Origin: Symbiodinium sp. CCMP2592
Taxonomy: Eukaryota; Sar; Dinophyceae; Suessiales; Symbiodiniaceae
Length of the DNA: 64,000 bases
NCBI GenBank assembly: GCA_905221615.1
Contig: CAJNDT010001291.1
Span: forward strand, 977,014-1,041,013
Direction of reading: 5' to 3'
Position 1 is the stretch's first letter, and each line of letters opens with the position of its first letter. The notes under the pieces were generated by a model. That model ran no database searches and was not told where the DNA came from. It saw only the letters and a list, made by a program, of their open reading frames with translations. Positions 11,051-62,200 of the stretch are shown here, piece after piece. Made by a program: the position numbers and the translations under genes.

Positions 11051-11114
11051 TCTGCAAGCACAAACTCGCAGCAACTGAAATCTTCAACTACTGTATGTTA
11101 GCCTATCTTACTCG

Positions 11115-12419: not shown

Positions 12420-12487
12420 CTGAGAGCGCAAGGATTGATCCTCGAATGCTCGCTTGAGAAAGTGCACGACTTATCCGAGGCATGGAC
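12420..12487 (-). other. Intron, GT-AG, 68 bp
   Basis: The exon ends ACGTGT, the intron runs GTCCATGCC...CGCTCTCAG, and the next exon starts GTCAGTGGCCAGCC. The join gives TCVSGQPC, an exact module motif, in phase 0. It is the shortest resolved intron in the window. Confidence 0.8.
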
Positions 12488-15440: not shown

Positions 15441-15539
15441 TGAGAATGTGTACCTCGCGCCAGCGTGGTGTCAGGCTTCTGTCGTGGACGGGCTTAGAAA
15501 AAAAGCGATGAACACATAAAACATCACAAAGCCAAGGTT

Positions 15540-18316: not shown

Positions 18317-18600
18317 CTTCGAAACCGAAACAGACACAAAGACACTTGCGCTCCGCTGCAAGCGTGTAGCTGCTGACGGCTGACGGCTGCCGGGACGGAT
18401 CCAACAAAAGAAGCAAAAAAACCGAGAGCTGACGACGAGACGCGAGCGCAAAAGCATTCGGAGGCCAAGTCTTACAAGCACGATCAAAGACAACTCGCTC
18501 AATACCCTTGACACCGTGTTTCAGACTAACATCTACGACTGCACGGCTACGATGGCCCTTTCTGCACTGCTTCGGCAAAAGGCACGACTGAGGCAGAGAC
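18317..18600 (-). other. Intron, GT-AG, 284 bp
   Basis: The exon ends ...GCCACGTGT, the intron starts GTCTCTGCC and ends TTTCGAAG, and the next exon starts GTCAGCGGCCAGAGC. The join restores TCVSGQSC. It sits at exactly the homologous position to the 68 bp intron after block A (12420-12487), as expected if the duplication included the intron; the intron bodies now differ completely. Confidence 0.75.
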
Positions 18601-21555: not shown

Positions 21556-21899
21556 CAAATGGAATCTCGACGATGTTCCTTGGAGCAAAGTGCAGGAGCG
21601 CACGGGGCACCCAACATTATCATTTGATCTCGGATGTAAACAGGAATTTTAGCCCCTCCGTACACCCCTACGTTGCCATGTATACTTTTCAGGATGTGCT
21701 CATCTTTATTGCTCGTACATGCGAAGAATGCGAGCAGTGCAAAGTTGGTTCTATTCAATTCTATTTAGAGTTTAGTTTTTAGGGAAGGACTTTGCAGTGA
21801 CGACAACAGTCAGCGGAATCTCTCCAACCCCTTGCATACCACCGACGCGGCAATGCCGCGAGACCCCGCCCAGAAAAGTTCCCCACAGACTCACAATGC

Positions 21900-23566: not shown

Positions 23567-23731
23567 CTGGCAATGAAAACTGAAAGTTGCTAAAGCAAAT
23601 AACATTGAACATGACGAGAAAAACAAGACTCTACTAGATGTCACAAATTGGCCACACGTGCGTTACACCACAATCATCAGCCCCATTGCCCCGACCGAAC
23701 GGACCATCGAAATGAATTGCAGCTAAAGCGC
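23567..23731 (-). other. Intron, GC-AG, 165 bp
   Basis: On the minus strand the exon ends GCGGGTG, the intron runs GCGCTTTAGC...CATTGCCAG, and the next exon starts GCGTATACCG. The join gives Gly-Gly-Val-Tyr, restoring the AAGGVYRLCWC motif seen in dozens of other modules. The intron is phase 1, with a GC donor and an AG|G acceptor. Confidence 0.85.
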
Positions 23732-42000: not shown

Positions 42001-43308
42001 GGTGAAGAAACCAAGGACGGGGAAATCATTGTCGAGCTTGGGGGTGGGCTTGTGAAGGTCCAGAGGCCCTGTGCCTCCCGGGACGATGTCACCGAAGTTG
42101 AGCTTGACCTAGGGTTGACCTATGATGGGATGATCAAGGAGCTGAGGGCTTTGGAGAGTTTGGCAGTTGGGGATATGTTGTGGCACGTTGATGCAAAGCA
42201 GCGGGTAATCAGCACACGTTGGGTGGTGGCTGCTAAAACCGAACGGATTGAGGGTCGCGAGACGCCCCTGGTCCGCTGCAGAATCGTCGCCCGTGACTAT
42301 TCCACCGGACCGTCAGCCGCGCAGTTAGGCATTAGCTCTCCCACGGCATCCGCCGAGGCGCTGAAGCTGTTTCTTGCGGTTGTTGGGGCCCAGGGTTTTA
42401 ACATTCTGGGGCTCGACGTGTCTACGGCTTTCCTCTTCGCTTACCTTAGGGGGGAGCAGGTTGTGGTGAGCATGCCTGAGGGTTGTCGGGGTCCCGCCGG
42501 AGAGAGATTGTTTCTCAAACTGAATAAAGCATTGTATGGCCTGCGCTCGGCAGCGCTACACTGGACGCGCCATCTCTCTCAGCTCCTGCACAAGCTCTTC
42601 AACATGAAGGCCTGTCCCACTGAGCCCTGTCTCTTCGTAGGGTCTTACAAGGGTCAAGCAATCTACATCTTGAGTTATGTTGACGATTTGCTTTTGGCTG
42701 GGCCAGACACAGCTGATCTTTACCAGATGGTGGAGGAACTACGCAAGGAGCTGAAGCTCAAGGTCACCGCGGACCTCGCCAAAGATGGTAAGATACATTT
42801 CCTAGGAAGGGAAGTTTTTCGGTCTGAGCAGGGTGGGGACCTTAAGTTTGGAATGGACCCAGGGTACATGAACGATATTCTGGAGGAGTACAAGCTTGAG
42901 AACGCCAAGGGTGTCCCAACGCCACCTTGCTTTAGGGATTTGCTTGACAGGTCTCTGGACGAGCCAGGGTTAAGGGTTCCTCTTTCTGCCGAAGCTGCTG
43001 CCCGCTACCGCCGTGCACTCGGCAAGCTAAGCTGGTTGAGCTCGCCGCTGGAGGTGCATGAGCGCGCTATGCGCGCTGTCTTGCGGTACCTCAAGACTGT
43101 CGTCAACTACTTTCAGCTTTTTCCACGCCAAAGTGTTGAGAAACTCCGTCTCCATGCCTATGTGGACGCCTCGTGGGGCAGCGAGCGCTCCGTCGATCGT
43201 CGGTCGATCTCGGGAGGGTGCCTCATGCTTGGAAAGGCCTGTATTAAGACGTGGGCAGCAGTCCGTTGCTTTGTCTTCGGCCGAGAGCGAGCTCTATGCA
43301 TTGGTTGA
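39019..43308 (+). CDS. copia pol: integrase, reverse transcriptase, start of RNase H
   Basis: An open frame of 1429 codons without an ATG at its start. Residues 1-35 continue the protease region. Residues 60-400 are low-complexity and probably not the real frame (see 39198-40225). The integrase zinc-binding HIPYNSSCEEC lies near 522-532. The integrase core is weak: the first acidic segment is replaced by a hydrophobic stretch (GIAMLVLVAVGCGVLG), while SDGEPAL and NAERAIRTLKE supply the later Asp and Glu. RT motifs are LDVSTAFLFAYLRG (about 1132), LNKALYGLRSA (about 1168) and SYVDDLLLAG (about 1220). RNase H starts at YVDASWGSERSVDRRSISGG and is cut by a frameshift near 43250. Confidence 0.85.
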   Translation: MKKGWDVDFSKVRVLGPSSRGKPGCKLYVESFQNCFWLSASRFVPESTRLRFQLLSAAVQDEQQLGRGGSNVAPPRDAGRGPGPRGSGISVERGSGVAGSGAASQGRGSVGARVAKCDGDRGGSPEAGSSSRSFGTASACAAGNGLCFNVGGNCSVSGDGQRREDQGPGSIQGSQGQRRKGEAKGEENAEVSGDQGHAESGSPTQEGRDGEEQARGETLEAIPEESGKEARLGVRVQGQGQAGDGGPGDADAGAKDRGAARGSSCGDDQVRQSICGASRESPEHSRVQCRVSSAQHIGGSRLLRGADTLFGSPVGRDHLQVGRDAGHGAAYGAAGAASSSTSRVDGYAPSASGASERVNGDPGHDAADAAASSSRPAASPSTCGNHAGGVPIATGGGVERSVDESVMAAVPSESQKRPLMAVLRGDLPMIFGQSSKESVNAVGPSSFAQGSEGPVAQGSQGPVAEGSQGPVAEGSQGPVAEGSQGPEDHGSIEGGVAPWIVAGDQGYLSSSDFSLLQNEHVLRSHIPYNSSCEECQRGRGVCPQRKLPEERKDRREVQADKFWFKGIAMLVLVAVGCGVLGTIQWQPDRESMVTSFVRWTRSAGLAGSQEVIISMRSDGEPALVSFLERCARELPHALLEQVPVDRHAPNAERAIRTLKELAQVQLCSLEKVGLTIASGGIPYLFSHLSVAHNRYHLDEGSSLTPEQRCRMKRIPAHPTYIFGASVLCLPPPSIAHLVNGRLCKGSYMGPEVASGSHWVRVQLNNGEKRVVRSPKVRMLMPLRYEVGLLRGVCRLLPGRDPPAEGPPVDPDSLAALPLPNTNTRGPPKTWVEEHGKTPRCRACKIQGFDMDKAMHTPACRARYAKYLRDTFDPKGSLERDKEIDAEMGFDAPVPDLGDLGFEGGLGEYVELPGDVAGVPEDYEDSLYEPSIADDDSRELPEQPAGEITNEEMQDLMEVEAEPLDRVPEGVADAFAGRIEHQEALGNVASAVSTVGEETKDGEIIVELGGGLVKVQRPCASRDDVTEVELDLGLTYDGMIKELRALESLAVGDMLWHVDAKQRVISTRWVVAAKTERIEGRETPLVRCRIVARDYSTGPSAAQLGISSPTASAEALKLFLAVVGAQGFNILGLDVSTAFLFAYLRGEQVVVSMPEGCRGPAGERLFLKLNKALYGLRSAALHWTRHLSQLLHKLFNMKACPTEPCLFVGSYKGQAIYILSYVDDLLLAGPDTADLYQMVEELRKELKLKVTADLAKDGKIHFLGREVFRSEQGGDLKFGMDPGYMNDILEEYKLENAKGVPTPPCFRDLLDRSLDEPGLRVPLSAEAAARYRRALGKLSWLSSPLEVHERAMRAVLRYLKTVVNYFQLFPRQSVEKLRLHAYVDASWGSERSVDRRSISGGCLMLGKACIKTWAAVRCFVFGRERALCIG
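39198..40225 (+). CDS. Alternative-frame ORF inside pol, Pro/Lys-rich
   Basis: From an ATG at 39198 this frame is open for 342 codons (MSSSSEEEVPTWRRPE to VVWNDL), entirely within the pol ORF but in another frame. Its composition is more protein-like: a basic Lys/Arg segment (about 130-190), a segment LSISVAAGFFEVRTRSLVPL, then a proline-rich tail (LPVPPPPPLPEW, TPPPLPRGPPP). The pol frame over the same stretch is Gly/Ser/Ala-rich. It is either the true pol spacer reached by frameshift or a separate overlapping protein. No known domain. Confidence 0.5.
40364..40485 (+). repeat. 24-27 bp tandem repeat in pol
   Basis: Units of GGTTCTCAGGGTCCAGTTGCAGAG repeat about five times and encode QGSQGPVAE. 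A coding minisatellite just before the integrase. Confidence 0.9.
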
Positions 43309-44731: not shown

Positions 44732-45148
44732 GAAAGAATTGTTTTCGTTTCGTGGGCCCAGAAACGGGGTTGTCCGCAGATCATTTCTTGACACGTTTCC
44801 GCGGGCGGATAACTCTTTCCACCTAAACTCCAAGGTTGTTTTATTTGAGGGAAATCCTTCGCCCTCAAAATGGCGACAACCGCGAACCGTTTAATTGCAT
44901 GATTTCAATCTTTTAAATTTGTGTGAAATCATGATTTTATCACACAAATGTTTTTATACCTGTCTGGTCTTTGCATTCAGTTCTTTTCACGCATGTCTCA
45001 GTTCCGAATGTTTAATGCACCGGCAGTTTGTAGCTCAAGTGGCTTTGGGAGCCACAGAGAAAATTTTTGTAGCGGGGGAGCCGGTGTGCAGTCTTAGTAC
45101 CCTCGGGGAAAAGTCTGTGTGCTGGCCGGTGTGTCCTAGGCCCGCTGC
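44732..45148 (+). other. Leader-like stretch with overlapping hairpins
   Basis: No gene. It contains two interlocking perfect 10 bp inverted repeats: CATGATTTCA (44898-44907) with TGAAATCATG (44924-44933), and ATTTGTGTGA (44917-44926) with TCACACAAAT (44940-44949). They share bases and so are mutually exclusive. It may be the 5' leader of the recombinase-type element that follows. Confidence 0.5.
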
Positions 45149-48382: not shown

Positions 48383-48563
48383 GGCGAGCTTTCGACGATC
48401 AGAGGAGATCTGGGCCTTGGCCCATCCTCGCACCTTTGCCTGCATGCAGCTTAGGCAAAACATGGTGTGTCGTCGGTCTCAGTGACAGCCTGCAGTTATC
48501 GCACGAATGTCTGTTTGTGTGAGGCGCTTGACTCAAGTCACTTAGCGCTAGAGGGTTGCGAGC
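48383..48563 (+). other. Spacer between recombinase and gag
   Basis: 181 bp without a gene. It contains GCATGCAGC and TCACTTAGCGC text but no repeat was matched to the element ends. Confidence 0.4.
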
Positions 48564-49769
48564 ATGGCCGGAGTGACATTGGACTCGGAAGCAGCCTTTA
48601 AAGAACGTGCTTTGAAGGTGGGACTCTCTGCTGCAAATCACGCCACCCTGGAAGCGCAGGGATACAGCACTTTTGGCGCCTTGGCTTTCGCAGTTTCAGC
48701 CTCGCCCAACAGCGTCAGCGAGGAAGAGGTAAAGGAATGGATTCGTGCAGTCTTCACACCGGCACCCGACCACCACCAGGTTTCCTGCTTGCGACGTTTG
48801 CTTTTCGAGGCCCAGGCCCTCTCAATCAGTGACATGAAGAACCGAGTGGAGCCTTCAAACGATTTCGTCACCAGGAAGATGCCAGTTGCCGAGCGCCTTG
48901 CCAGGCAAAAGGCGCAGGAATCCCGGCTCACAGGGATACATTTTTCGCCAGAAACCACACCATCCCATGGTGTGGTAGATCGACTTGTGGAAATGCTTGA
49001 AACCGGGACACTAGTCTACCTGCCTCCCGGTAAGTACCTCTCAAGGGCTCAGGAAATTCAGTCGGCCAAAGCAGACAAAGCTTTGTCGATTGATTCAGAT
49101 GGAAACCTTAAGGTCACTTCCAAGCTTGACAAGTTCGAACATTGTGACACGGGTTCCGAGTGGACCCTTCGCCAGGCTTGGGCGAGAAGGAGCCTCGCCT
49201 TTGATCTTGCGGGCCTCGCGACATATCAGGCCATGGAGGCTTGGGTGCATAAGCTTTTTGTGACACTTGAGCGGCCTTCCCCTCCTGGCTACCACGGAGT
49301 GGCGTTGACTCAAATCGTGGCAGCCGATCGTCACTTGTTCACCCTGGCCGCCTCCAATCTGCTAGGAGCCCTTGCTGCCGCCCCGGGCTGCGTCAAACCG
49401 CTTGATGAACAGCTTAAGCTCCTCAGCGATCACAGTGATGTGTTGCAGTTTCTGAATCACCTGCCTGCCCAGAGCTTGCCGTCCAATCCTCTCAAGCGCT
49501 CCGAGAAAGGTGACACCCCCCAAGGCCGAGGCAAAGGCAAAGGCAAGAAAGGCAAGGATCGTGGAACTGCTGCTTCCATTACCGTGCCTGAGGGAGCAGT
49601 CACTAAGGTGAATGACAAACCTGTGTGTTTCGCCTTTAACTGCGGCTCCTGCAAGTTCAAGGTGTCCAAGAAAGGCAGGTGCGGGCGAGGCTTTCACCTG
49701 TGTTGGTGGAAAGGCTGTGGTGGTGCCCACCCGGGGCACGAGTGCACAAAGGCTCGCCCGAATCAGTGA
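48564..49769 (+). CDS. gag-like protein with C-terminal zinc region
   Basis: 401 codons from an ATG. The helical N-terminal and middle part includes a conserved-looking TWTLRQAW-type segment (EWTLRQAWARRSLAFDLAG) and WVHKLF. A basic linker (GRGKGKGKKGKDRG, about 313-326) is followed by CFAFNCGSCKF, CGRGFHLCWWKGC and HPGHEC (about 354-395), the Cys/His pattern typical of gag proteins of DIRS/Ngaro-type elements. It ends in UGA (49767-49769), and the same frame then stays open for 2.4 kb into the dioxygenase-methyltransferase ORF. Confidence 0.75.
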   Translation: MAGVTLDSEAAFKERALKVGLSAANHATLEAQGYSTFGALAFAVSASPNSVSEEEVKEWIRAVFTPAPDHHQVSCLRRLLFEAQALSISDMKNRVEPSNDFVTRKMPVAERLARQKAQESRLTGIHFSPETTPSHGVVDRLVEMLETGTLVYLPPGKYLSRAQEIQSAKADKALSIDSDGNLKVTSKLDKFEHCDTGSEWTLRQAWARRSLAFDLAGLATYQAMEAWVHKLFVTLERPSPPGYHGVALTQIVAADRHLFTLAASNLLGALAAAPGCVKPLDEQLKLLSDHSDVLQFLNHLPAQSLPSNPLKRSEKGDTPQGRGKGKGKKGKDRGTAASITVPEGAVTKVNDKPVCFAFNCGSCKFKVSKKGRCGRGFHLCWWKGCGGAHPGHECTKARPNQ

Positions 49770-52250
49770 AAGCCCGCAGGGACCGCGGCGCACCCTGTGG
49801 ATTCCCAGTCGTCGCAGTGCCAGGCAAATGTGCTTGCAGAGCCAAGGGGCCCTCCTTTGCACCCTGCCGAAATCTTTGCAACATCCCTTTTGGAACTTTC
49901 TTCGGCCAGTCGTGTAGATTTGCTGAAGCTTTTTGACTTGCTCCCTCACGAGGATGCGCCTACTGCTGGGCGTGCAGAAGCTGGAGGTTTTTCCTTCGGC
50001 ACCGGCACCTGGGTGCATGGAAACCTTGTGGGATTGCGAAACAACTGCCGCCTTTTCCCTTTAAGCACTAAAGTTTTTACTCGTTTTGTGTTGCAGGAGT
50101 GCCCCAGCCACTCCTTTTCTGCCATAGTCATCCTTGACAACGTTTGCACTGTCGCGCACCGCGACACTCATAACCTAGAGTCGGCTCGCAATGCTGTTTT
50201 CGGGCTGTCTGATTACTCAGGCGGCGAAGTCTGGGTCCAGAATGCTCAGGGCCTCACGCCCCTGGAGGTGAATGGCAAGAGGCTTCTGGGAGTTGCTTTG
50301 CCAACGATCCCGGGCCCTGCTGTCTTCTCAGCCAGATCGGCCCTACATGCGACCTTACCATGGTCTGGCCGCCGTGTAGTCTTAGTTGCGTACACAACAA
50401 ATTTCATCGACAAATTGTCGACCGCTGATGCTGACTTCGCTTCCAGCTTGGGCTTTGCCGCGTGTCAGCATTCTATCCACAAGCTGAGCCGCCAGCCTTT
50501 TGCGGTGGAGGTCTTCAGCGGCACCGCTGTTTTGTCTCGGGCCCTCTTCGCCGCTGGCTTTGCAACTCTGGCCGTCGATCACCGGCCTCGCGCCGCTCTT
50601 ATGCCAACAGTGCGCTTGGATCTCGCTCAAGAGGCCCAGCAAGATCTGCTTATGGATCGTCTTCGGGCAACCCCTCCTGATGCAGTGCATATAGCCCCGC
50701 CTTGCGGTACCGCCAGCCGAGCCCGTGAGCGCCCCCTGCCATCAGCGCTGCTGAAACAGGGCGTTCGAGAGCCCAAGCCCTTGCGATCTGCTCGGTATCC
50801 CTTGGGTTTGCCAAGCCTTGACAAAGCCTCATCTCAATACCACCGCGTGCGGCAGGCAAACCTGCTCTACCTCTTCACTTTCAACTTGGTCTGCTGGGCG
50901 CTTGAGAATGCTGTGCCTTTCACGCTTGAGAATCCCGCCAACAGCCACTTTTGGGCCGTTTTTGCTTCGCTGGCTCGTGCCCGCCCTAAAGCAGCCTGGC
51001 ATCGCTTCAGCCACAGAACCTTTCAGGTGGAGTTTGATCATTGCATGTATGGCGGGGCTCGGCCAAAAACTACACGGTTGCTCACCAATTGCAAGCAGAT
51101 GGCCGACTTGTGTGCCCGTTGCGATCGCTCTCATGATCACGCCCCTTGGGGGGCTCAGCGCGGGCCCCATGGCTGGGTTTTCGCCACTCACCTCGAGGCT
51201 TCCTATCCCGTCCAGCTTGCTGAAGCCTTGGCTGCACGCTTCAGCGCCCAAGCTCAGGCCTCTGGCCTCTCCTTTTGCCCGCGGCCGCTGGACGTGCAAC
51301 ATGCTGCTTACGCCGCCCAGGGCGTGCAGCATCGCAAGAGTCAGCCTCTCATCTCCGAGTTTGCCGCCATAAAGCCTGTGCCCAAGTCGGCCGTCGACGA
51401 ATCTTGCATGAAGGTTCTCACGGCCCCAATGATTGGGGTGAAGACGGGGGGCCTGCCGAAACCCTCTGACCATGAGCCTTCGTCCATTGTCGAGCACCCT
51501 GGGCCCCCAGAGGGAAACCCTGTCCCCTCGCCTGCCTCTTCGGGTTTAGTCCCCAACCCCTTGTGTGAAACCCCGCGGCACGCAGGACCCGAGCCTGGTG
51601 CGGGGCAGGGGATGGTTACCGTTGGGGTTTATCGTAGTCCCGAGGTGTGGGTAAAGGAGGCCCTTAAGCTGCCGCATCCGATGGACTCGAATAACCCTCT
51701 GGCCGAAGCCACCATGATGGCCATCAAGGAAAATCTTACTTCGGAGGCTAAGGTGCTTAAGCTTAAGCAAAAGATTGCCCTGACTAAGATGGAGATCCGG
51801 GCCAAGCAACTTGAGTCGCAGGAGAGAGCACTGCATCAGTCAAAGCCACCTTGGATGCAAAAAGTCCTCAAAGGAAAGCGCATTCTGTTGCTGCGCGACC
51901 TGTTGTCGCAGCACGGTTTTGATGACATGGGGGTCGTGGACCTCGTTAGCGACGGGTCACATCTAGTGGGGTCCGCTCCGAAGCCCGAATGCTTTGAAAC
52001 GCGCGTTAGGCTGGCAAAGCTCTCTCCCGAGGCCTTAAGAGCTGCAGCCCAGGACTTGAGGAAAGCCATCCTTGCAAATCCCAGGAAAGTCTCTGCGGAC
52101 GAGGCGGCTGAACTTCGGAAGGTCTCAGATGAAGAGACGGCTGAAGGTTTCCTCTACGGGACCGTTCGAGTCCGAGGATGCAGTGTCAGACCACCTCGGA
52201 ACCCAAGATTGGGTGGCTGTGAGGAGATTTCTCCTTCAGCAGTCCGATAA
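49770..52250 (+). CDS. 2OG-Fe(II) dioxygenase-like plus C5-cytosine methyltransferase-like fusion
   Basis: In frame with gag after a single UGA and lacking any ATG until deep inside the methyltransferase, so probably made by read-through or as part of a polyprotein. Residue numbers are from the GTG at 49797. Dioxygenase-like part: VAHRDTHNL (HxD, about 119-127), YSGGEVWV, then ALHATLPWSGRRVVLVAYTT (distal His about 183, Arg about 190), the order expected of a double-stranded beta-helix iron site. Methyltransferase-like part: motif I-like VEVFSGTAVLSRALF (about 237-251), motif IV-like APPCGTASRARE with the catalytic-type Cys (about 300), motif VI-like TLENPANSHFW (about 375), then CMYGGARPKTTRLLTN (about 416). 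A long linker and a helix (about 645-675) precede the overlap with RT. Function is inferred from motifs only. Confidence 0.75.
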   Translation, partial: KPAGTAAHPVDSQSSQCQANVLAEPRGPPLHPAEIFATSLLELSSASRVDLLKLFDLLPHEDAPTAGRAEAGGFSFGTGTWVHGNLVGLRNNCRLFPLSTKVFTRFVLQECPSHSFSAIVILDNVCTVAHRDTHNLESARNAVFGLSDYSGGEVWVQNAQGLTPLEVNGKRLLGVALPTIPGPAVFSARSALHATLPWSGRRVVLVAYTTNFIDKLSTADADFASSLGFAACQHSIHKLSRQPFAVEVFSGTAVLSRALFAAGFATLAVDHRPRAALMPTVRLDLAQEAQQDLLMDRLRATPPDAVHIAPPCGTASRARERPLPSALLKQGVREPKPLRSARYPLGLPSLDKASSQYHRVRQANLLYLFTFNLVCWALENAVPFTLENPANSHFWAVFASLARARPKAAWHRFSHRTFQVEFDHCMYGGARPKTTRLLTNCKQMADLCARCDRSHDHAPWGAQRGPHGWVFATHLEASYPVQLAEALAARFSAQAQASGLSFCPRPLDVQHAAYAAQGVQHRKSQPLISEFAAIKPVPKSAVDESCMKVLTAPMIGVKTGGLPKPSDHEPSSIVEHPGPPEGNPVPSPASSGLVPNPLCETPRHAGPEPGAGQGMVTVGVYRSPEVWVKEALKLPHPMDSNNPLAEATMMAIKENLTSEAKVLKLKQKIALTKMEIRAKQLESQERALHQSKPPWMQKVLKGKRILLLRDLLSQHGFDDMGVVDLVSDGSHLVGSAPKPECFETRVRLAKLSPEALRAAAQDLRKAILANPRKVSADEAAELRKVSDEETAEGFLYGTVRVRGCSVRPPRNPRLGGCEEISPSAVR

Positions 52251-53628
52251 GAAGCGTCCCATTGATGACGGCCACGAGGCCCACCTCAACGATGCTTATG
52301 GGTCGGCCATCCGCTTGAGGCTCCAGGATAGTGCGTACTTTACGGCCATGGCACTGGCTGTTGCAAAGATGCAAAAGGACCTGGGTGTGCATGTTCCATG
52401 GAAGGTCAAATGCCTAGACTTGTCGAAGGCTTACAAACAATTTTGTGTAAGCGAGCGGGATAGGTGCCTTTCGGTTATAGTCATTTTCGACGAAAAAGGA
52501 AAGCCAACCTGGTATGTGGCGAACGCCTTAATGTTTGGTGCCGCTGCCAGCGTTTTTAGCTTTAACCGTATAAGTCGGGCCATACATTTCTTGTTCACCA
52601 AAGTCTTGAACGTGGTGTGCTCGTACTTCTATGATGACTACCCGATGTTATCCCGCTCCGACATGGCAGAGGCAACTGATGAGGCGTGCGGCCGCATGCT
52701 GAGTCTGCTTGGCATCCGATATGCCGAGACGGGGACTGGATCCAAAGGTTTGCCCTTCGATGCATCATGCAGTGTTCTGGGACTCAAAATGTCAGTGGAA
52801 CATCTTCACTTGGGGAAGCTCTCGATTTCAAACAAACCGGGAAGAATAGAGCGGCTCGTGGAGTTGTTTGGCAAGGTCAAAGCCGAGGGATCGATGACAA
52901 AGCATTTTGGCCAGGTGTTGCTTGGACTTTTGCGTTTTGCGGCAGGCTCATGTGTGGGCATGTCGCTAAATCACATTTGCGCTGACTTGAATAGGATAGT
53001 CCATGGTGAAGCTTTTCCCTCTCCCGAGGAGTTTGCAAAGCTTTGTGATCGGGCTTTGGATTTTCTTGGCAGTGCCCGTCCAAGGGAGGTGAAGGTGTCA
53101 GATCGAAAGGAGGTGGTTCACATCTTCACGGATGGGTCTCTTGAAGGCGACTTCGCTGGCATAGGGGCCGTGATGATTGATTCGGCCGACGGCTTCACGC
53201 GTGTGTTGCAAGGTGAGCTCCCGCCTGAGCTCAGGAACGCATGGCGAAACGAGGCCAGCGAACACTTGATCTGCCAGGTCGAGTTATATGCGATTTTCTG
53301 TGCAAAGCTTGTTTTCCGGGAACGGCTGGAGGGCAGGCGAGTCGTCTATTGGATAGACAATGAGCCTGCACGTCTAGCCCTTGTGAAGGGCGTGAGCAGA
53401 TCTTGCATTATGGATCGCATGCTTCGCGAGCTGTGTAGGCTTGAAGACAACATGATCTCCTACGCGTGGTACGCTCGAGTACCGTCGAAGTCGAACATCG
53501 CCGACGGACCTTCAAGGGGCAAGGGCGATGATGTGGCCAGAGCGTTGGGCCTGGTCAGTGCAGAGACGTTCCCTGGATGCATTCCATGGCAGCACTTGTT
53601 ATGGGGGCAATCGGGTGCTGACACATAG
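52129..53628 (+). CDS. DIRS-type reverse transcriptase and RNase H
   Basis: The open frame starts at 52072 (first ATG 52129) and overlaps the previous ORF by about 180 bp in a different frame. Residue numbers are from 52072. RT motifs: KKRPIDDGHEAHLNDAYGS (about 60-78), KCLDLSKAYKQF (about 113), NALMFGAAASVFSFNR (about 152), and the catalytic SYFYDDYPML (about 184, F/Y-x-DD). RNase H follows with IFTDGSLEGDFAGIGAV (about 351), CQVELYAI (Glu, about 402), WIDNEPAR (about 427) and SNIADGPSRG (about 475), giving the four-acid site. This RT clade, with no integrase, is that of DIRS-like elements. Expression by frameshift from the upstream frame is likely. Confidence 0.85.
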   Translation: MKRRLKVSSTGPFESEDAVSDHLGTQDWVAVRRFLLQQSDKKRPIDDGHEAHLNDAYGSAIRLRLQDSAYFTAMALAVAKMQKDLGVHVPWKVKCLDLSKAYKQFCVSERDRCLSVIVIFDEKGKPTWYVANALMFGAAASVFSFNRISRAIHFLFTKVLNVVCSYFYDDYPMLSRSDMAEATDEACGRMLSLLGIRYAETGTGSKGLPFDASCSVLGLKMSVEHLHLGKLSISNKPGRIERLVELFGKVKAEGSMTKHFGQVLLGLLRFAAGSCVGMSLNHICADLNRIVHGEAFPSPEEFAKLCDRALDFLGSARPREVKVSDRKEVVHIFTDGSLEGDFAGIGAVMIDSADGFTRVLQGELPPELRNAWRNEASEHLICQVELYAIFCAKLVFRERLEGRRVVYWIDNEPARLALVKGVSRSCIMDRMLRELCRLEDNMISYAWYARVPSKSNIADGPSRGKGDDVARALGLVSAETFPGCIPWQHLLWGQSGADT

Positions 53629-53861
53629 CGGATTCTCTTACCGCAAACCGCTTTGTGGAAACTCTACCACACGTGTTATGCACCGAAGTTGTCGGTGCGA
53701 AAACCCTTTTCGAACAGCCCCTTTCGAGTGCTCGGAAGAAAAGAGATCGCGACTTCAGTTGTGCGAATATATTCGGGAGCATTTTTGATAACTGGCTCCA
53801 ATACTTATTATATTCTCGGGCATTCTTTATATTGAGCCCGGATACTGTTTCACGAATCTTT

Positions 53862-56800
53862 ATGCAATATACGGTTCTGGAGTTTTGGGCTCAAGTGGGG
53901 AGGGGCTCCGCGTGCCTTGAGCTGGTTAACCTGTACTTTCCCGAGTGCAGGGCTGACACTTCCCACACGTGCCTTCGGGCCATGGCTCCTTCTTCTGGAG
54001 GCCTTGATTGTGGGTTCTACCTACACTTATGGCGATCTTTGAAGCGAATGAATTGTGCTTTGAGTGATGGTGCTTCTTTGTTGGGAAAAGAAGTGATTGG
54101 GAAAGAAAAGAGCTGTTTCGGCAGCTGGGGCAAAGCGTCTGGCAATGACCGAGATGCGCAACCGAGGGTGGCTCAGCGCCTGCAGATGCTGAGCGCTTTC
54201 ATTGTTCGAGCACGTGATTTTCAGCCTCAGCTGTTCCAGAAGGATTTTGATTTCTTGGCTCAACGTGGTGTGCCGAGAACCATGGTGTGGAGTGCAGTTG
54301 GGCCTTGGGGGCTCCGACTAGGGGCTTCGGAGATGGAGTGCTCTGATGGCACGTGTGTGAGCGGCAACCCGCTTGCTGCTGCAACCTCTTGGTCCTCGGG
54401 GATGGATCACGGGATTGCTGGGGATGAATGCCCTGCTCAGGGGCTACCTTTGGCGAGTGAGCCTTGTGCGCATGCTTCTGACACGCAGGCAAGTGCAACT
54501 TTTGGGCTTCACATGATTGAGGACACTTTCTCTGAGGAGTTTCTTTACTACGTGCCGCAGGCAAGTGCAGCATTTGGGCTTCACTTGATTGAGGACACTT
54601 TCTCCGAGGAATTTCTTTACTACGCGCCGCAGCAGCAGCTTCTTCCCTCAGCGGCTGGTCTGGACCTTGGTGCTGGGCTGTGTGGGACGTCGTCTTGCGC
54701 TGCTGAGAGCCCTGTGTGTGACTTTCAAGAAATCAACAAGACCCGTGAAAGGGCAAAGAGCCTTAGAGGCCTAGCTAGTGATGATTGTGTGTGTCAAGAA
54801 ATCAACAAGACCCGCGAAAGGGCAAAGAGCCTGAGAGGCCTAACTAGTGCCGATTGTGATGGTGAGTGCGAGCCTGACCGTAGGACGAAGAGCCTTTATG
54901 GCCGTGTTCTTAGTTTTCTGTGGGAGCTCAGCACTATCAAGACCCGCGAAAGGGCTAAGAGTGAGACTGATATCGGGCCTCTGGCGCCTGCTACTAGTTC
55001 TAGTGGTAGACATGGCTCCCCGGAGCCCCCCTGTTCTCCCTCCTCGCAGTGCTGCTGCCATGGCCTGGGCTCGCTGGCGGCTGGCGACGGTGGCGGCCAG
55101 TTCTTCATCGCGCAGGGCAAGGACACTGGAGTGGTTGCCGATGACGCTTCTTGCCGGGGCTGCTGCCCATGCCGTGGTTCCTCTGCCCCCCTAGGGTTTA
55201 GGTCCTCCCCCATAGGGGTACCCGTGTCTTCTGTTGGGGGCGATGCGCTGCCCCATTGCTGCACTGACCAAGCTTCACTTTCTCCCCTTGGGTTTAGGCC
55301 TTTGGTTTCTTGGGTACCTGAAGTCCAGGCTGCTGCAACAGCTGATCGGGATGATCTTGTGATGCCTAACAGAGCGTGCCCCCGGAGCCCAGGCGGTGGG
55401 TGTAATCCGGGTTTGGAGTTTTTGCCAGGAGGAGGTGGGGTCGCTGACCCAGGGCTCCGGGGGCCTTCCCAATACAGGCCGCCGTCGGTGTGCAATACAT
55501 CAGTGGGTCGAGGGGACTGTGGTCCCGTTGAGCAGTCTCAGGACGGTGCCAAGATCGATGCAGTTCCCCCTTGCATGTGTCAGGTGCCTGCGACGCGCCT
55601 GGCGGGACTGCTGCAAACTCAGAGTGATCTTGACGGTGTGCAACTGCAGGGGCCACTGGGTCAAGACAGGCCGAAAGGTCCGAGTATATCCCGCGTGGCC
55701 CCTGGTAGTTTGACGTCTTGCTGCCTGTGTTGCGAGTGCCATGCTGCCATGCTTGATCCGAGATGCCCGCCTGTCTGTGTGCAGTTGCAGGGGTCAGTGG
55801 GTCAAGGTAGGCCGAAAGGTCCGAGTATATCCCATTTGGCCCCGAGCAGCCTGCTTCCAACTTGTGTGTGCGAGGCATGCCCTGGCGAGATGCGCAATTG
55901 CGATTGTGAACTGCGGCCTGCTCATGGGCGGCCTCTTCCGAGGCAGGGTGGTGACGGGCAAGTGCAAGGGATCTCGGGCCAGGACCTGGACTCTGCTGCT
56001 ATCTTGCGCTCCTGCTTGTCAGAGGGCTGCTCGGGTCCCCCTGGCCTAAGGTTTGGAGGCGGTAACCCGTTTGAGGGCATGATGGCCAGTATCACGGAAC
56101 AGCTTATGCCCATGATCACTGCGCTCATTCAGAAAGCTGTGCAGGAAGCCATTGCAAATGCAATGGGAGGTGCCCCGGCAACCCCTCCCCGTGTTGTGCT
56201 GCAGGAGCCGGACCTGGAGCGAGGGCCCAAACGCCATAAGCCTGACCCTAACCCCAGTAACAAGCGAAAAAACCAGGAGTCGAGCCGCCATCCTTCTTCT
56301 CGTGCGCCGGGCGAGGGCAAAGCATCTGGTGGCAGAGGTGGTCAGCCTGCTGCTGCAAAGGGCTCGGCCAAGAGTGCTGCTAAAGGTAGTGCAGAGGCGT
56401 CCCCACCCAAGTCTGGACCTAAAGGCAAAGGGCAGGGCGATCGACCTCCTCGCGATGCTGAGGGCTGGACCAAGGTTCAGCGTGCTCCCCCGCAGGGCCC
56501 CTTCCAGCTCCGAAGGCAGGATTGGAGCGCGCAGTTGTTGTCGCAGGATGGCATTGCCAAAGCATTGGACGATCTTAAACCGGGTTCTACACTTGAAGCT
56601 GTCATTCTTGTCGAGCCCTCGGCGCTGCCGAGAATTCGCACCATGCTTGCTGGCACCAGCAAATCCCATAAAATCACCCTTGTAACCTTGGACGCGAGTG
56701 GTCCTCACAAGGTTCCGGGATGTGTGGGCGATCTCCTGCGTTTTCGGCGAGCCTCGATTGTGCATTGCAAATCCGACCCTGCTGATGGTGGTGTCCCTTG

Positions 56801-59294
56801 CTTTGCGGGACACAAGGCCAAGGCCATTAAAGTTGTTCCGGCGTCCACTTCGGTCGTCTACTTTAAGGTGCCCGAGAAGTACATGACGCCTGATAAATTC
56901 AAGCATTGGAAGAACAACCCGAGTCGTGCTGCTTCTTCTTGGGCCAGTTCTCACCAAATCACTTTGAGTGACACGTGGGGTTGGGTCGAGGAGCAGCAGG
57001 CTGGCAAGCAAGGTTTGCAGCTGTTTGGCATTGCTCGCCTCCTGGATGCCGAGTTGTCTTCTCTCGTCGCTGTCAGTGGCCGGGATGGAGTCTTTGTTGA
57101 TGTGCCGCGCGGCAAGCTTGTCTCCACTGTGCAGTGGCTCGCTGTTACCAAGGGGGAAGCTCCGGCTGCGTATCTTGAACGCGGCCTCCGCATGAGTGCT
57201 CCTTATGGTCTTGCCACCCAGGGCGGACGCCTTGGCGCCAGATCGCCTAGAGATCCCTCACAGGCTGTCCCGCGTGTTTGGAATTTCCCTCATGTGCCGG
57301 CTACCTGGGGACAGAAGGAAGTGCTGCAGGTGTTGGACCAGTCCTTCAAGGATGTGGCTTTGATTCAGCATAAGCGCACTGGCGCCGAGTACTTGTATCG
57401 CTTTAGAGCTACGCTCAAACACAGCGATCTTGATCTGGTCCCTTTGAGTGCTATCGTCGAGAGCGAGCCGGGGAAGGACAATGAAATCACGCTGTGGGCC
57501 ACGGTTGCACCCTATAAGCCTAAGCAAGCTAAGCAGCGACCTCTGCGATGTGCGCCGACTCCCTGCCTTGCCAAGGAGAAGCCTGCACTGGAGCCCAAAC
57601 CTGTTAAACTTGAGGTCCCTGCTGAGCTGGATGATGAAGGTAAGGAGGTGTCCCCTGCCAAACATGTTGCGGCTTCGCATCGGCAAATCCCCTCGGGGTG
57701 TGATCTCATTGAGACTCCGAAAGACGGAGCCTGTTTGTTTCACGCCATAGCGCGTGGCCTCCACTGGCTTTCGGGCCCTAAGAAGACGGAGTACTCCCAC
57801 AGGGACTTGAGGGCGCGCTGTGTAGAGCACTTACGAAAATATGCTTCGCAATATATAGGGGAATGGGACGGCCACGGGCCGGCTCTACAAAAATTGCGCG
57901 AAAATGCCGCATCTCCGGAGGACGCCTTTGAGGAATACCTCAAGTTAATTGCTTCGGAATCTGCATACGCCTCTACCATCGAGCTGAAGGCTCTCGGACG
58001 TTTATTTGATTGCCACATCCTTGTGATCCCACGCGATGGGAATTTTAGTGCGATGTCGTTTCATGCGCAGCAGCGCAAAAGGAGGCTGGTGTTATGGTAC
58101 ACGCCTCGGCACATCGAGCTTCTTTTGCCAGCTAAGGATGCTAAAGACTACCCAGAGGAGGTTTTCTCCGTTACGAGTGGTGCTGTCGTTGACCTGAGGG
58201 CTGGAGGGGATGATGCTTCCCAGTGCTCTGGCACTGTTTGGACTGCTTGCGCCCGATCAAACCGATCCAAGGCCAGCCGATCATCCTCTGTGAAGGCGGG
58301 CACTGTGTGGACTGTCACCAACGCGTCGAGCAGAACGACCGCTTCTTCTCTTAAGCGCGCTCGCGGTGCTGCTGCGACGGTCTGGTCCCGAGCCGTCTCC
58401 TCTGGTGCTTCCGTGCATTCTCAAATGCCTGCCTTGCCGGAGTGCGACGATGATGATGCCCCGCAACCTGAGCGGTTGCATCATGCCAGCCGGGCCCTGC
58501 CTCAGTCTGCCCTTGTGATGGCCCGTCGTAATCGCGGCCGAGCCTTCCCTGATGGAGTTGCTAAATGCAGGCTTTGTCCCTTTCGCCGCAAGTGTGCTGA
58601 TCCTGTGAAGGCCTATGCGGCCTATCAGCGGCACTTCTTGGATTCGCATCCGGGGGAGAAGCTTGGGCTCGCTCCTGCCCGCAAGGCTTCCTGTGTTCGT
58701 GACCTCGCTGATGGCGAGGGGGCGTACTGGAGATGCAAACGGTGCCAGGCAGGCATCTCTACTGCTGATGCGGCCCGTTTTGGCAAGGACTCTCTGTGCC
58801 GCTTTCGCCGGGAGCATAAAACACAGGCCCACCCGCGCGTCTCTTGGGCTGTGTGGAACAAGGAAGCGAAATCACACTCGGCCACCAAATGGGCCTCAAA
58901 GATCAGTGCCACTCGCAACAATGCCCAGAAGGCTAAGCTCCTGCCGGTGCTGCGCGAGCTTGAGGCTCAGGACTTTGATGCCTTCGGATGGCCGCGCCAG
59001 GCCGGGAAGGACACCAATACTGTTGATAAGTATCCCTTGCGCATATGCCCGGCTTGGGTGTGTCGCAAATGCCGAGCGCCGTGCCCCTCTGCAGAGATCG
59101 CTAGGAAGCATCGCTCGGTAAAGGGACAGTGCCCTTCTCGCACTGCTAAGGCGAGGGCGTGGATTCGGTTGCGCTCCCTTGCTGCCAATAAGAAGCTTCA
59201 TGATGCTGCACCTGCCTCGGTTCGCAAAGAGCAGGGCGAGCTTGCCTTTGCTGCTGCTGAAAAGGCCTTGCGAGCCCCCATGTTGTCGGTGTGA
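53862..59294 (+). CDS. LINE ORF1: repeats, OTU-type protease and zinc fingers
   Basis: The frame is open from 53655; the first ATG is 53862 and a better-looking start is 53982 (MAPSSGGLDCGFYLHLW). Residue numbers are from 53655. The N-terminal third holds internal duplications: FGLHMIEDTFSEEFLYY twice, INKTRERAKSLRGL twice plus a partial third, and QGRPKGPSIS-type segments twice. It then has an amphipathic helix (MMASITEQLMPMITALIQKA, about 810) and a Lys/Arg-rich segment. An OTU domain spans about 1345-1490, with DGACLFHAIA (catalytic Cys, about 1357-1366) and RHIELLLP (catalytic His). Three Cys/His fingers follow (CRLCPFRRKC, CKRC, CRKCRAPC, about 1638-1825). ORF1 proteins bind RNA; the OTU could act on ubiquitin-like modifiers or process the polyprotein. 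Confidence 0.8.
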   Translation: MQYTVLEFWAQVGRGSACLELVNLYFPECRADTSHTCLRAMAPSSGGLDCGFYLHLWRSLKRMNCALSDGASLLGKEVIGKEKSCFGSWGKASGNDRDAQPRVAQRLQMLSAFIVRARDFQPQLFQKDFDFLAQRGVPRTMVWSAVGPWGLRLGASEMECSDGTCVSGNPLAAATSWSSGMDHGIAGDECPAQGLPLASEPCAHASDTQASATFGLHMIEDTFSEEFLYYVPQASAAFGLHLIEDTFSEEFLYYAPQQQLLPSAAGLDLGAGLCGTSSCAAESPVCDFQEINKTRERAKSLRGLASDDCVCQEINKTRERAKSLRGLTSADCDGECEPDRRTKSLYGRVLSFLWELSTIKTRERAKSETDIGPLAPATSSSGRHGSPEPPCSPSSQCCCHGLGSLAAGDGGGQFFIAQGKDTGVVADDASCRGCCPCRGSSAPLGFRSSPIGVPVSSVGGDALPHCCTDQASLSPLGFRPLVSWVPEVQAAATADRDDLVMPNRACPRSPGGGCNPGLEFLPGGGGVADPGLRGPSQYRPPSVCNTSVGRGDCGPVEQSQDGAKIDAVPPCMCQVPATRLAGLLQTQSDLDGVQLQGPLGQDRPKGPSISRVAPGSLTSCCLCCECHAAMLDPRCPPVCVQLQGSVGQGRPKGPSISHLAPSSLLPTCVCEACPGEMRNCDCELRPAHGRPLPRQGGDGQVQGISGQDLDSAAILRSCLSEGCSGPPGLRFGGGNPFEGMMASITEQLMPMITALIQKAVQEAIANAMGGAPATPPRVVLQEPDLERGPKRHKPDPNPSNKRKNQESSRHPSSRAPGEGKASGGRGGQPAAAKGSAKSAAKGSAEASPPKSGPKGKGQGDRPPRDAEGWTKVQRAPPQGPFQLRRQDWSAQLLSQDGIAKALDDLKPGSTLEAVILVEPSALPRIRTMLAGTSKSHKITLVTLDASGPHKVPGCVGDLLRFRRASIVHCKSDPADGGVPCFAGHKAKAIKVVPASTSVVYFKVPEKYMTPDKFKHWKNNPSRAASSWASSHQITLSDTWGWVEEQQAGKQGLQLFGIARLLDAELSSLVAVSGRDGVFVDVPRGKLVSTVQWLAVTKGEAPAAYLERGLRMSAPYGLATQGGRLGARSPRDPSQAVPRVWNFPHVPATWGQKEVLQVLDQSFKDVALIQHKRTGAEYLYRFRATLKHSDLDLVPLSAIVESEPGKDNEITLWATVAPYKPKQAKQRPLRCAPTPCLAKEKPALEPKPVKLEVPAELDDEGKEVSPAKHVAASHRQIPSGCDLIETPKDGACLFHAIARGLHWLSGPKKTEYSHRDLRARCVEHLRKYASQYIGEWDGHGPALQKLRENAASPEDAFEEYLKLIASESAYASTIELKALGRLFDCHILVIPRDGNFSAMSFHAQQRKRRLVLWYTPRHIELLLPAKDAKDYPEEVFSVTSGAVVDLRAGGDDASQCSGTVWTACARSNRSKASRSSSVKAGTVWTVTNASSRTTASSLKRARGAAATVWSRAVSSGASVHSQMPALPECDDDDAPQPERLHHASRALPQSALVMARRNRGRAFPDGVAKCRLCPFRRKCADPVKAYAAYQRHFLDSHPGEKLGLAPARKASCVRDLADGEGAYWRCKRCQAGISTADAARFGKDSLCRFRREHKTQAHPRVSWAVWNKEAKSHSATKWASKISATRNNAQKAKLLPVLRELEAQDFDAFGWPRQAGKDTNTVDKYPLRICPAWVCRKCRAPCPSAEIARKHRSVKGQCPSRTAKARAWIRLRSLAANKKLHDAAPASVRKEQGELAFAAAEKALRAPMLSV
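55150..55310 (+). repeat. ORF1-internal copies of the 3' region repeat
   Basis: CCCCCTAGGGTTTAGGTCC (about 55186) and TCCCCTTGGGTTTAGGCC (about 55282) match the core of the units in 63.4-63.95 kb, including the preceding GCTGCTGCC text. In ORF1 they encode APLGFRSSP and SPLGFRPLV. Confidence 0.7.
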
Positions 59295-62200
59295 TTCGTA
59301 TTTCGTGCTTGAATGTTCACCGGCGTGGCACGTCGACGGTGGGGCTGCTTGATGCTCTGCTTCGGCAAGGCCCCCCACAGATTATGGCTTTATCCGAGGT
59401 CAATGTTCCTGCAACGGCTGGCATCGGCTATCGCAACCAGTGGAAAACGCACGGCCGGCATGTTGCTCTGAGCGCCCCCGAGGATCTCGGCAGCCGGGTT
59501 GCTTTGGTCAGCGATTTTCCTTTTCGGCATGTCCAGCTGTGTAAGGGTCCTGCTTCCACCAGGCACGTGGCGGGGCTCTTTAATTTGCGATCCCTCCCTG
59601 AGGATGATTCTTCGCTCCCTGCGAGCTCCAGGAGTGCCACTGATGAAACCATCCTGGTGGTGGCCTTTTATGGCCAGGCCGGCAACGAGCCAGTTGCCCA
59701 GACACAAGTGGATGAGGTTTTGGAGTGTGCGGTTGCCTCGGGTTATAGGTTTGTGGTTTTGGGCGACTACAACCTTGAGCCTTCCCAAGGCCGCTTAGGA
59801 TCGCTAATTTCGCAAGGCACCGTGCTTGCTGGTGATGAATGTGCGCGTGGCCGGCCCCTTCCTGCCACGGGCCCGGTCAATGCCCAAGGCGTGCGCACTC
59901 GTCGCATTGATTTTGCCGTTAATCATCGTGACTTGCCTGCGGTTTCTGTAGATCACTTTACGTGCGATTTTTCGGACCACTTGGGGGTACACTACTTGTA
60001 TGCCCTCGATGCTCCTTGTCCCTTGGTTGGGCCCAAGCGATGCAAGCCTCGTGATGATCTCCAGTCTTCTGACTTGGAGTCCAGATGTGCTCAAATTGAT
60101 GCTGGACCCTTTGCAAGCGCCTTGGAACAGAATGATTTGGACGGGGCGTGGCGCTTCTTGTCGGACACCGCCGAGCTTCTGCTGTGTGAGCCGTGCTCTG
60201 CAGAGTGCGTTCCTCGCGCGTCTTCCTGGGAGCCTGTCGCCCATAGTGCGGCGGGACGGGCTGGCAAGCAGCTTGTGACGTCGGAGGGCCTGCGCCTTTT
60301 GCTGCGACTCCGTGCGAGGCTTCAGGTTCTTTCCCACCGGACGAACGATGCTTTGCTGGTGGCGCGCATCAGGCGCTCACTCCGGTCCACGCGCTTGAAG
60401 GTGCCCAGCCTGCCTTATGCCCGTGATGGCGATGAGCTCTCCCTTCTTCCACATGTTGCACAGCTCATTGAGACTTTCACGCAGCAGGAGGAGGAGGCAA
60501 GAAAGCAGATGTGGCGCACCAGGACGCGTGCGGACCTGCCTCGTGCCCGGTCTTTTGTCAAGCGGCGCGCTGATGAGCAGCTCGCTTGGGAGCGTCAGCT
60601 TCCGGATGTTGCCAGTCCGGGCGACCCTGCACATCCGGCGGTCGCGGTTGCAGCTGTGGCAAAGGACCTGCGGGCGAAGCTCTGTCCCGCGTCCTTTAGG
60701 GCGGTTGACATGCAGGCCATGCGTGATCTGTTGCGGCCCCTGCCGCGCCCCGCAAGCACGGAGGTCGTGCCTAACATCACGCCAGAGGCTCTCCGACGCT
60801 CTATGCAGTCCATGAGGCACCGTGCTGCCGGGCCGGATGCGTGGAAACCTGGACTGCTATGTTCCCTGCCTGATCTTTGGTGGGTGTGGACCTCCCAGCT
60901 GTGGAATCGGTGCCTTGCTTGTTGTGACGTCCCCGCCCAGTGGGCACAGGCACGTGTGGTGATGATTAAGAAAATCAAGGGGGGCTTCAGGCCGTTAACC
61001 ATCTCTCAAGCTGTCTGGCGTGCGGGAGCAAGGATTTTGAATGCCCAACTCTCCGACTGGATAGGTTCTTGGAGCTCTCCGTCGGATGCCGGTGGCATCC
61101 CGGGCACGTCGGTGTCGGGTGCCCTGCTTCAGCTGAATGCTGCAATGCGCGGTGGCGCTAACGTTGCGGTTCAACAGGACATTGCGGGGTTCTTTGATGC
61201 CATCCAGTTTGAGGCCCTAGAGGTCCTCCTTTCTCATTTGAAAGCGCCGCCTTTTCTTTGGCCGCTGCTGAAGGCCTTTTACACGCGAGCTTCGCGCATC
61301 GTCCAACTTGATGGTGCATACAGTGATGCCTGGTTTAAGCCCCGCTTGGGTATAGCTCAGGGTTGTCCCTTAAGTCCCACCCTTGCTGCCGCATTTAGCC
61401 ACCTTTGGACCTTGGCTGTGTTGAGGCAAGGGGTTTCAGGCCTGGTCTACCTGGACGACCGGTCCTTCTGGACTTCCTCTGCGGATCTTGGCGACCTGGA
61501 GCATGCGATTCGGCGCTCCGACCGATTCGATGCCACTTGTGGTCTTGAAATTTCCCTGCCAAAGTGTGCGATCGTGGCGCCGGAGGGTCATGTCGAGGCC
61601 TCTGCTCTGGCTGCCCGATTCAACTATCAGTTTTCGCAAACCCTTGAAGTCTTAGGTGTCACTGTTTCCTTTAATGATGAATGGGGCTTGCTGAAATTTT
61701 CCTTGAGAAAAGCTTTGCTGCGCATGGACCTTTTGCGCTGGGTGACCGCTTGCAGTCGACTGCGGGCCCTCATGCTGAAATCACTTGTTTACCCGTGCTT
61801 GGTGTGGGCCGCTGCCTATGCCACGCCACTGGCAGGCCAGATGAAGCAAGTTAGAGATGCTGCGATTCGTGTTTTTGACTGTCAATTTTCCTTTGAAGCC
61901 CCGCGTGTCCTGATCTTCGAACATGTGGGGTGGATGCTGGAGCCACAGTGCGCTGCTGACTCTGCTGTGCTCCGCGAGGCCTGGCGCCTCCTCTGCCAGC
62001 CTCCGGCCTTTGCTCTGGAGCAGCCGCGTGATGCCCGGGGCCAGCGCTGGGATCAGCTGTTGCCTGCTGCGCCTGGCCTCCTTCGCAAATTGGGGTGGAG
62101 CGTCGTTGAACGCCCTGATGGCTTCTTTTTCGCCTGCCGTGATGACTTAGGGATCTCTCGTGAGGTGCAGGTCGGATGGGAGAGCTTTGCTGAGGTTAAG

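Follow-up and report, generated by a model that had tools for sequence, protein, structure and literature searches.

A TET/JBP-like oxygenase and a C5-methyltransferase-like domain in the Pol polyprotein of a DIRS-like retrotransposon of Symbiodinium

The sequence analysed was a stretch of 64 000 nucleotides from Symbiodinium sp. CCMP2592 (GenBank contig CAJNDT010001291.1, positions 977 014 to 1 041 013), called the window below. On its plus strand, a single retroelement extends over roughly 44.8–53.9 kb; it is DIRS-like and probably a tyrosine-recombinase retrotransposon (Table 1). One open reading frame (ORF) of this element, at 49770–52250 (+), had been described in a first-pass annotation, made from the sequence alone, as a fusion of a dioxygenase-like and a cytosine-methyltransferase-like domain. 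The ORF was found as described, with 826 amino acids and with coordinates and motifs exact. Its two domains are called OX (oxygenase) and MT (methyltransferase) here.

Protein relatives of the ORF were collected by a search of 5.8 billion proteins, in which scoring was confined to the 7993 candidates with the most words in common; at least 74 relatives were returned. With profiles built in this study, OX was detected in 28 of the 74, standing before MT in 24 (16 of them running on into the reverse transcriptase, RT) and after MT in four. The other 46 carry MT without OX; some OX-less relatives begin near MT and may be cut gene models. Two extra relatives, found by a search with the OX region, brought the count of OX to 30 of 76. 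A profile search restricted to short proteins added 29 OX proteins, four of them with the start of MT; these are limited to about 336 amino acids and may also be cut gene models. Relatives P0001, P0003 and P0063 carry a Symbiodinium label from their source. Pattern matches in IMG/VR viral contigs (30) and in GTDB species genomes (59) yielded no confirmed relative. The fusion is not peculiar to the window copy: it is seen in the 28 protein relatives and among at least 29 near-full-length genomic copies, which are described below.

The HxD motif of OX (H130 and D132) lies in VAHRDTHN and is followed by H193 and R202 in ALHATLPWSGRR. When the window ORF was aligned with 23 relatives, H130 and D132 were kept in 23 of the 24 sequences (P0033 begins too late to be judged), H193 in 23 (Arg in P0010) and R202 in all 24. 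The Fe-binding His, Asp and His and the 2-oxoglutarate (2OG)-binding Arg were invariant (19/19) among the window and 18 sequences picked from the 30 relatives, a set to which P0010 does not belong. An Asn three residues past the Asp (HxDxxN) is almost invariant in the OX alignment and is lost in P0009; TET2 presumably has an Asn at this position, where it contacts 5-methylcytosine (5mC). The predicted structure of OX (pLDDT 92) matched the double-stranded beta-helix fold of 2OG oxygenases, with TET2, NgTET1, 6n1f, NMAD-1 and ALKBH5 all within 1 Z, and phage and giant-virus proteins labelled JBP1/TET were among its best structural matches in BFVD. By sequence, the Pfam family Tet_JBP (PF12851.13) matched the window OX at 3.2e-6 with 26.9 bits, its gathering score of 34.9 not being reached; the best of eight short OX relatives scanned with the same model scored 28.7 bits, also under that threshold. 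A precomputed PF12851.14 label was present on 3 of the 29 short OX relatives. When family profiles were run on 19 OX fragments, Tet_JBP matched seven, and 2OG-FeII_Oxy_3 and Asp_Arg_Hydrox matched one each. Comparison of the OX sequence with the PDB gave two unrelated chains only, and no sequence match to OX was found in 50 697 phage records. An AlkB-type repair enzyme was also tried as the leading reading of OX and was dropped, as sequence favours Tet_JBP. On these matches, TET/JBP appears to be the best-supported sequence family for OX. Separately, a protein of 274 amino acids (P0091, from a cluster of 73) was matched by the OX profile at residues 48–187 and gave no MT or RT match within its gene model; it may be a relative of OX that stands alone or belongs to the host.

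The MT motifs are VEVFSGTAVLS (motif I-like), APPCG (with C312) and ENP (387–389). The predicted structure (pLDDT 94) has a C5-methyltransferase fold and matched DNMT3A and M.HhaI with tied Z scores. The motif-IV Cys (C312) and the motif-VI Glu (E387) are each present in all 24 aligned sequences, and N388 and P389 are each kept in 23; in P0075, which is not in the alignment, ENP is replaced by EGP. The Pfam DNA_methylase model (PF00145) matched neither the window ORF at E values up to 10 nor, at E values up to 1, any of the 24 sequences or the 46 MT-only relatives. One MT-only relative matched Methyltransf_23 at 0.0016. Scans with PHROGs and NCBIfam were weak at most, the match for MT being a phage DNA methyltransferase family at 0.053. 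An alignment profile matched the methyltransferase chains 7zgt (0.0034) and 9gdj (0.16) of the PDB over short stretches.

In the profile and structure search of both halves that the first-pass annotation had proposed, each half has a fold-level match (2OG oxygenase for OX, C5-methyltransferase for MT) and OX has a sub-threshold match to Tet_JBP, while the DNA_methylase match looked for in MT was not obtained. The dioxygenase-like character of the first half is borne out by its fold, with Tet_JBP as leading sequence family, and the C5-methyltransferase-like character of the second by its structural match to DNA C5-methyltransferases and its conserved PC and ENP motifs. A chance match of the OX and MT motifs was considered and, by judgement, dropped, because the fold matches, the conservation and the low omega values given below make such an origin untenable. 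The ORF very probably encodes a 2OG oxygenase followed by a C5-methyltransferase-like enzyme.

Table 1. Features of the DIRS-like element in the window.
Feature	Position	Strand	Evidence and remarks
Repeat A1, the left-hand A of the split direct repeats	44790..45070	+	281 nt; 98.9% identity to the stretch between the B repeats at the right end of L031:335-615 and L032:366-646
Tyrosine-recombinase-like ORF, 739 aa	46163..48382	+	GARWTDS aa 419, HSLKATL aa 539, GHH aa 566, YSRQ aa 579
Gag-like ORF, 405 aa, Cys/His-rich stretch at C-terminus	48552..49769	+	ORF; homology to P0068 and P0063
Single in-frame TGA (CAG TGA), boundary of gag-like and OX-MT ORFs	49767..49769	+	29/29 near-full-length copies, three subfamilies
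OX-MT-linker portion of the Pol polyprotein, 826 open codons	49770..52250	+	ORF; at least 56 own-genome matches
OX, TET/JBP-like 2OG-Fe(II) oxygenase domain, aa 40-235	49887..50474	+	H130, D132, N135, H193, R202
MT, C5-cytosine-methyltransferase-like domain, aa 242-500	50493..51269	+	Motif I FSGTAVLS, C312 in APPCG, ENP 387-389, RPKTTRLL
Linker conserved among relatives, aa 501-798	51270..52163	+	Linker-derived profile matches 66/74 relatives; omega 0.19
Reverse transcriptase and RNase H-like ORF	52060..53628	+	YFYDDY; RNase H acidic motifs by eye; not in the OX-MT frame in the window copy
Repeat B (B1)	53603..53887	+	285 nt; 100% identity to B2 of L032:666-950

Copies of the ORF were searched in the genome of the same organism (1.098 Gb, 5383 contigs). 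At least 56 matches were found, of which at least 29 are near full length, and at least 11 further matches at 38% identity have frames of 1269 codons; these counts are lower bounds, 55 of 6544 first-look candidates having been scored. A single open frame of at least 1282 codons contains OX, MT and the complete RT profile match in 17 of these 29 copies. The frame ends inside RT in 11 copies and before RT in the window copy. The pairing of a putative base writer and a possible base modifier in one polyprotein, as claimed in the first-pass annotation, is seen in a single ORF in the window and together with a full RT in the 17 copies. Eight of 16 near-identical copies (L004, L006–L009, L012, L013 and L015) share the same frame end at codon 848 (838 with a 10-codon deletion), which suggests that a form already interrupted near the start of RT was itself multiplied.

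The catalytic residues of OX and MT are intact in all 29 near-full-length copies. Omega was calculated for the 208 pairs formed between the 16 near-identical copies (at least 97% protein identity) and 13 copies that are 84–88% identical to them. The median was lowest in MT (0.06), followed by OX (0.12), the linker (0.19) and the first 39 residues (0.36). Both the omega values and the residue check refer to the 29 full-length copies among the 56 matches, partial matches and those at 38% identity lying outside the set. OX and MT are both under purifying selection.

The type of the element was judged from its other ORFs and its repeats. The recombinase-like ORF carries R, H-x-x-K, GHH and Y motifs in that order, a pattern which was taken here as a sign of a tyrosine recombinase; the ORF had no match by sequence in Pfam, PHROGs, NCBIfam or the PDB. 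No integrase was matched in the four window ORFs scanned with Pfam. RVT_1 matched the RT ORF of the window at 1.6e-3 (18.6 bits, under the gathering score of 29.6) and matched relatives at values as good as 2.8e-7, with RNase H families in a few of them. An alignment profile including the RT columns matched Ty3-type RT chains of the PDB at 2.3e-5 and 5e-5, and the RT profile built here matched 58 of the 74 relatives; sequence searches of the PDB with ORF3 or RT yielded no informative match. When the window was compared with itself (matches of at least 20 nt), no repeats were found as element ends, only tandem copies near 54.5–55 kb. The split repeats emerged from the comparison of the window with sister copies and follow an A-coding-B-A-B plan, with A1 at the left end in the window and B-A-B at the right end in the sister copies. 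The order B1-A2-B2 was present at the right end of both sister copies fetched (L031 and L032), with a B2 of 285 nt in L032 but only some 75 nt in L031. The sole left flank fetched (L033) aligns with the window only from position 45025, and so shares just the last 46 nt of A. A2-B2 was not found in the window copy, which stops at the end of B1; a LINE-type element comes next and the contig ends with the window. The recombinase motifs and the split repeats bear out the proposal that the fusion belongs to a DIRS-type element. The fusion in one reading frame was confirmed, OX and MT following each other in the same ORF. Two details depart from the first-pass annotation: RT is out of frame in the window copy, and the OX-MT frame opens directly after an in-frame TGA.

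The gag-like and OX-MT ORFs share one frame and are split by this one TGA in all 29 near-full-length copies. In 15 of the 16 near-identical copies, the first ATG does not come before codon 278, downstream of OX, and in the remaining one it is at codon 167, inside OX. Because no ATG lies ahead of OX, the OX of the window's subfamily would need readthrough or a non-AUG start. In the other 13 copies the first ATG is at codon 29–35, immediately ahead of OX, and from the position of these codons a start there is also possible in the other two subfamilies. The gag-like ORF had no library match, and its name rests on its position and its Cys/His stretch. Homologous sequence precedes OX-MT in P0068 (30%, 2e-35) and MT-OX in P0063 (32%, 8e-22), and in both relatives the gag-like sequence runs unbroken into the enzyme domains.

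The reverse order of domains was also followed. In P0058, P0066 and P0076, MT is followed by OX and then by a C-terminal half unmatched by the RT profile built here. This half is alignable to P0058 throughout in P0066 and P0076, and in P0076 it gave a weak RVT_1 match (0.011). At least 41 matches to P0076 were found in the Symbiodinium genome (37 of 7367 candidates scored); at least 14 of them span the protein from residue 1 or 2 to its end at 55–61% identity, 12 without an internal stop. In the MT tree, the branch that sets the three proteins apart measures 2.2 changes per column and has 100/100 support. The OX tree places them among the other sequences, and a single OX clade for the three is not rejected by the approximately unbiased test (p 0.176). 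On the two trees, OX may have been joined separately to two distant MT lineages. In a quick RT tree of 51 rows, the presence of OX needs at least six changes forced by starred branches, a count weakened by cut models and long rows. Such shuffling of OX recalls the movement of TET genes between DNA transposon lineages reported in the accessible part of Kojima (2025, PMC12730594). As a separate observation, two MT-RT relatives (P0039 and P0067) carry a DUF4326 label (PF14216), which matched 2 of the 46 MT-only proteins (best 3.9e-16). DUF4326 is another possible accessory enzyme in MT-bearing retroelements.

Other elements lie around the one described. A LINE-type element follows it at 53622–63313 (+), with a first ORF (53622–59294) containing an OTU-like cysteine protease domain (Pfam, 9.3e-13) and a second (59261–63313, +) encoding an endonuclease and RT. 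A Copia-type RT ORF (RVT_2, 8.2e-31) is located at 38971–43308 (+). Eleven long ORFs on the minus strand cover about 23 kb (1677–25106). Five of them were scanned (4769–7132, 7166–11083, 12362–15493, 18547–21648 and 21891–23630) and gave one sub-threshold Pfam match, HydF_tetramer at 0.0033. This run of ORFs is possibly a large mobile or viral-like element.

Already known are C5-methyltransferases in DIRS and LINE elements of Symbiodinium, TET genes in DNA transposons, and methyltransferases together with TET enzymes in phages. TET/JBP-bearing DNA transposons of fungi were reportedly described by Iyer et al. in 2014. To our knowledge, the DIRS elements that carry a Dam-type methyltransferase have no oxygenase. 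Among the closest known systems is SymbioDIRS-Dnmt3 (de Mendoza et al. 2018, PMC5890265), which, according to the accessible part of its description, is likewise a dinoflagellate DIRS-like element: its Pol includes a C5-methyltransferase, one of its ORFs is a tyrosine recombinase, and its repeats follow the A-coding-B-A-B plan. Its methyltransferases were counted with the Pfam DNA_methylase model and placed in Dnmt3, whereas the scanned members of the present family have no DNA_methylase match; in addition, MT lies here upstream of RT and is joined to a TET/JBP-like oxygenase. The words JBP and TET do not occur in the main text of PMC5890265. The Dam-type DIRS elements, as presented in the accessible part of the same paper, also combine a tyrosine-recombinase retrotransposon with a DNA methyltransferase, but theirs is an N6-adenine enzyme and structurally unrelated. 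The fungal elements of Kojima (2025, PMC12730594) share with the present one a TET/JBP-type dioxygenase passed between element lineages; they are DNA transposons and Helitrons, for which the accessible part of the paper mentions no fused C5-methyltransferase, whereas the element described here is a retrotransposon. In the hypermodification sets of phages, a C5-methyltransferase and a TET/JBP enzyme, plus a glycosyltransferase, are encoded together, so that writer and 5mC oxidiser are associated as they are here (PMC12730594, accessible part). The phage sets are genes of DNA phages and not a single retroelement polyprotein, and no glycosyltransferase was matched in the four window ORFs scanned with Pfam. 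Among the papers listed in searches of the open-licence literature, with preprints outside the scope, no description was found of a retrotransposon with a TET/JBP enzyme or with both enzymes.

A mechanism can be proposed from these elements. Gag would be translated, and readthrough of the TGA seen at the junction would give a less abundant Gag-OX-MT-RT-RNase H polyprotein. By analogy with other gag-pol elements, this polyprotein would stay on the element RNA and the new cDNA. MT, judging from its family, would methylate cytosines of the cDNA, and OX, on the same grounds, would oxidise 5mC to 5-hydroxymethylcytosine or beyond. The extrachromosomal cDNA and the fresh insert would then bear a self-made mark, being neither naked nor plainly 5mC-methylated, and this mark may be poorly seen by host silencing or DNA sensing. 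The first-pass annotation had suggested, as a possible purpose, that marks set and edited in this way let the element escape silencing or label its DNA for the recombinase. It is rather likely that the OX-MT cassette acts on the element's own nucleic acid. That it does so by methylation followed by oxidation, rather than by some other use, is a plausible but tentative proposal. Still more tentative is the full picture of a hypermodified-DNA retroelement, in which one Pol would reverse-transcribe, methylate C and oxidise the methyl group, giving the cDNA a phage-like coat of oxidised C (or of 5-hydroxymethyluracil, hmU), with a cassette assembled at least twice from distant dinoflagellate MT lineages. 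For SymbioDIRS-Dnmt3, in the accessible part of the paper, the authors cite de novo CG methylation and favour cDNA as the substrate (PMC5890265). In the present family, C-to-T and G-to-A variants that occur in no more than 3 of the 16 near-identical copies numbered 16 at 674 CpG positions versus 25 at 2355 other C/G positions, an odds ratio of 2.27 (p 0.013; whole-alignment counts served as denominators, and the copies are not independent). This enrichment is weak evidence, mildly consistent with methylated copies. The CpG observed/expected ratio is 0.78 in the element and 0.68–0.84 in the rest of the window (4-kb blocks).

Several observations weigh against the proposed scheme. The CpG decay could equally be produced by host methylation. 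For OX, TET, AlkB-type and a bacterial 2OG oxygenase are structurally tied, the protein and small-molecule hydroxylases PHD2 (Z 9.9) and SnoN (10.1) are little below them, and the Tet_JBP score stays under its threshold; for MT, the DNA_methylase model gave no match. The window copy is itself broken, with a frameshift ahead of RT that puts the RT ORF in a different frame from OX-MT. Some family members may be inactive, since the distal His is lost in P0010 and ENP is replaced by EGP in P0075. Most relatives (46/74) carry MT without OX, and OX is therefore in general dispensable for this lifestyle.

Among the alternatives, OX may act on thymine in the manner of JBP, making hmU, which is abundant in dinoflagellate DNA, beside the 5mC made by MT, so that the cDNA would bear both host-like marks. 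Enrichment of hmU on repetitive DNA of Breviolum minutum (PMC11071213, accessible part) and the presence of thymine hydroxylases in the TET/JBP family (PMC12730594, accessible part) speak for this reading. It is nevertheless rather unlikely, as a C5-methyltransferase accompanies OX in all 30 OX proteins of the 76 long relatives, which fits sequential work on cytosine; these 30 were found by an MT-containing query or are length-limited, and the start of MT is seen in only 4 of the 29 short OX relatives. Moreover, if hmU silences transposable elements of dinoflagellates, as the title of Li et al. (2024, PNAS), a study of the dinoflagellate hmU enzyme, suggests, the element would gain little by writing it.

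The two enzymes might instead have separate targets, OX stripping host-laid silencing 5mC from existing copies and MT protecting the cDNA or marking host loci. An escape from silencing is proposed for TET-bearing DNA transposons in the accessible part of Kojima (2025, PMC12730594). Opposed activities on the same base in one chain would cancel out unless separated, however, and both domains lie in Pol with RT and not in a separately expressed protein, which makes this division of labour unlikely. A role on RNA, with MT methylating element RNA and OX acting as an AlkB-like demethylase or repair enzyme guarding it, or a structural role, is more doubtful again: profile support goes to Tet_JBP (7 of 19 OX fragments, against one for each of two other 2OG families), MT bears C5-methyltransferase motifs, and a purely structural role does not agree with catalytic residues kept in 29/29 copies. 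Finally, the fusion could be an artefact of assembly or annotation, or a dead passenger, as the frameshift and the absence of A2-B2 within the window might suggest for the window copy. This reading is refuted by the low omega and by at least 29 near-full-length copies at separate loci, 17 of which combine OX, MT and a full RT in a single frame; the Symbiodinium-labelled relatives P0001, P0003 and P0063 also speak against it.

The element would be a retrotransposon bearing a TET/JBP-type oxygenase and a DNA methyltransferase together. It would provide a testable case of a mobile element that writes and edits base marks through which the host may detect it, and both 5mC and hmU are present in the DNA of this lineage. 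Sisters that lack OX but have a similar MT and RT offer natural controls. The MT type also matters for the methyltransferase inventory of these organisms: such a C5-methyltransferase-like family would escape DNMT counts that rely on the Pfam DNA_methylase model.

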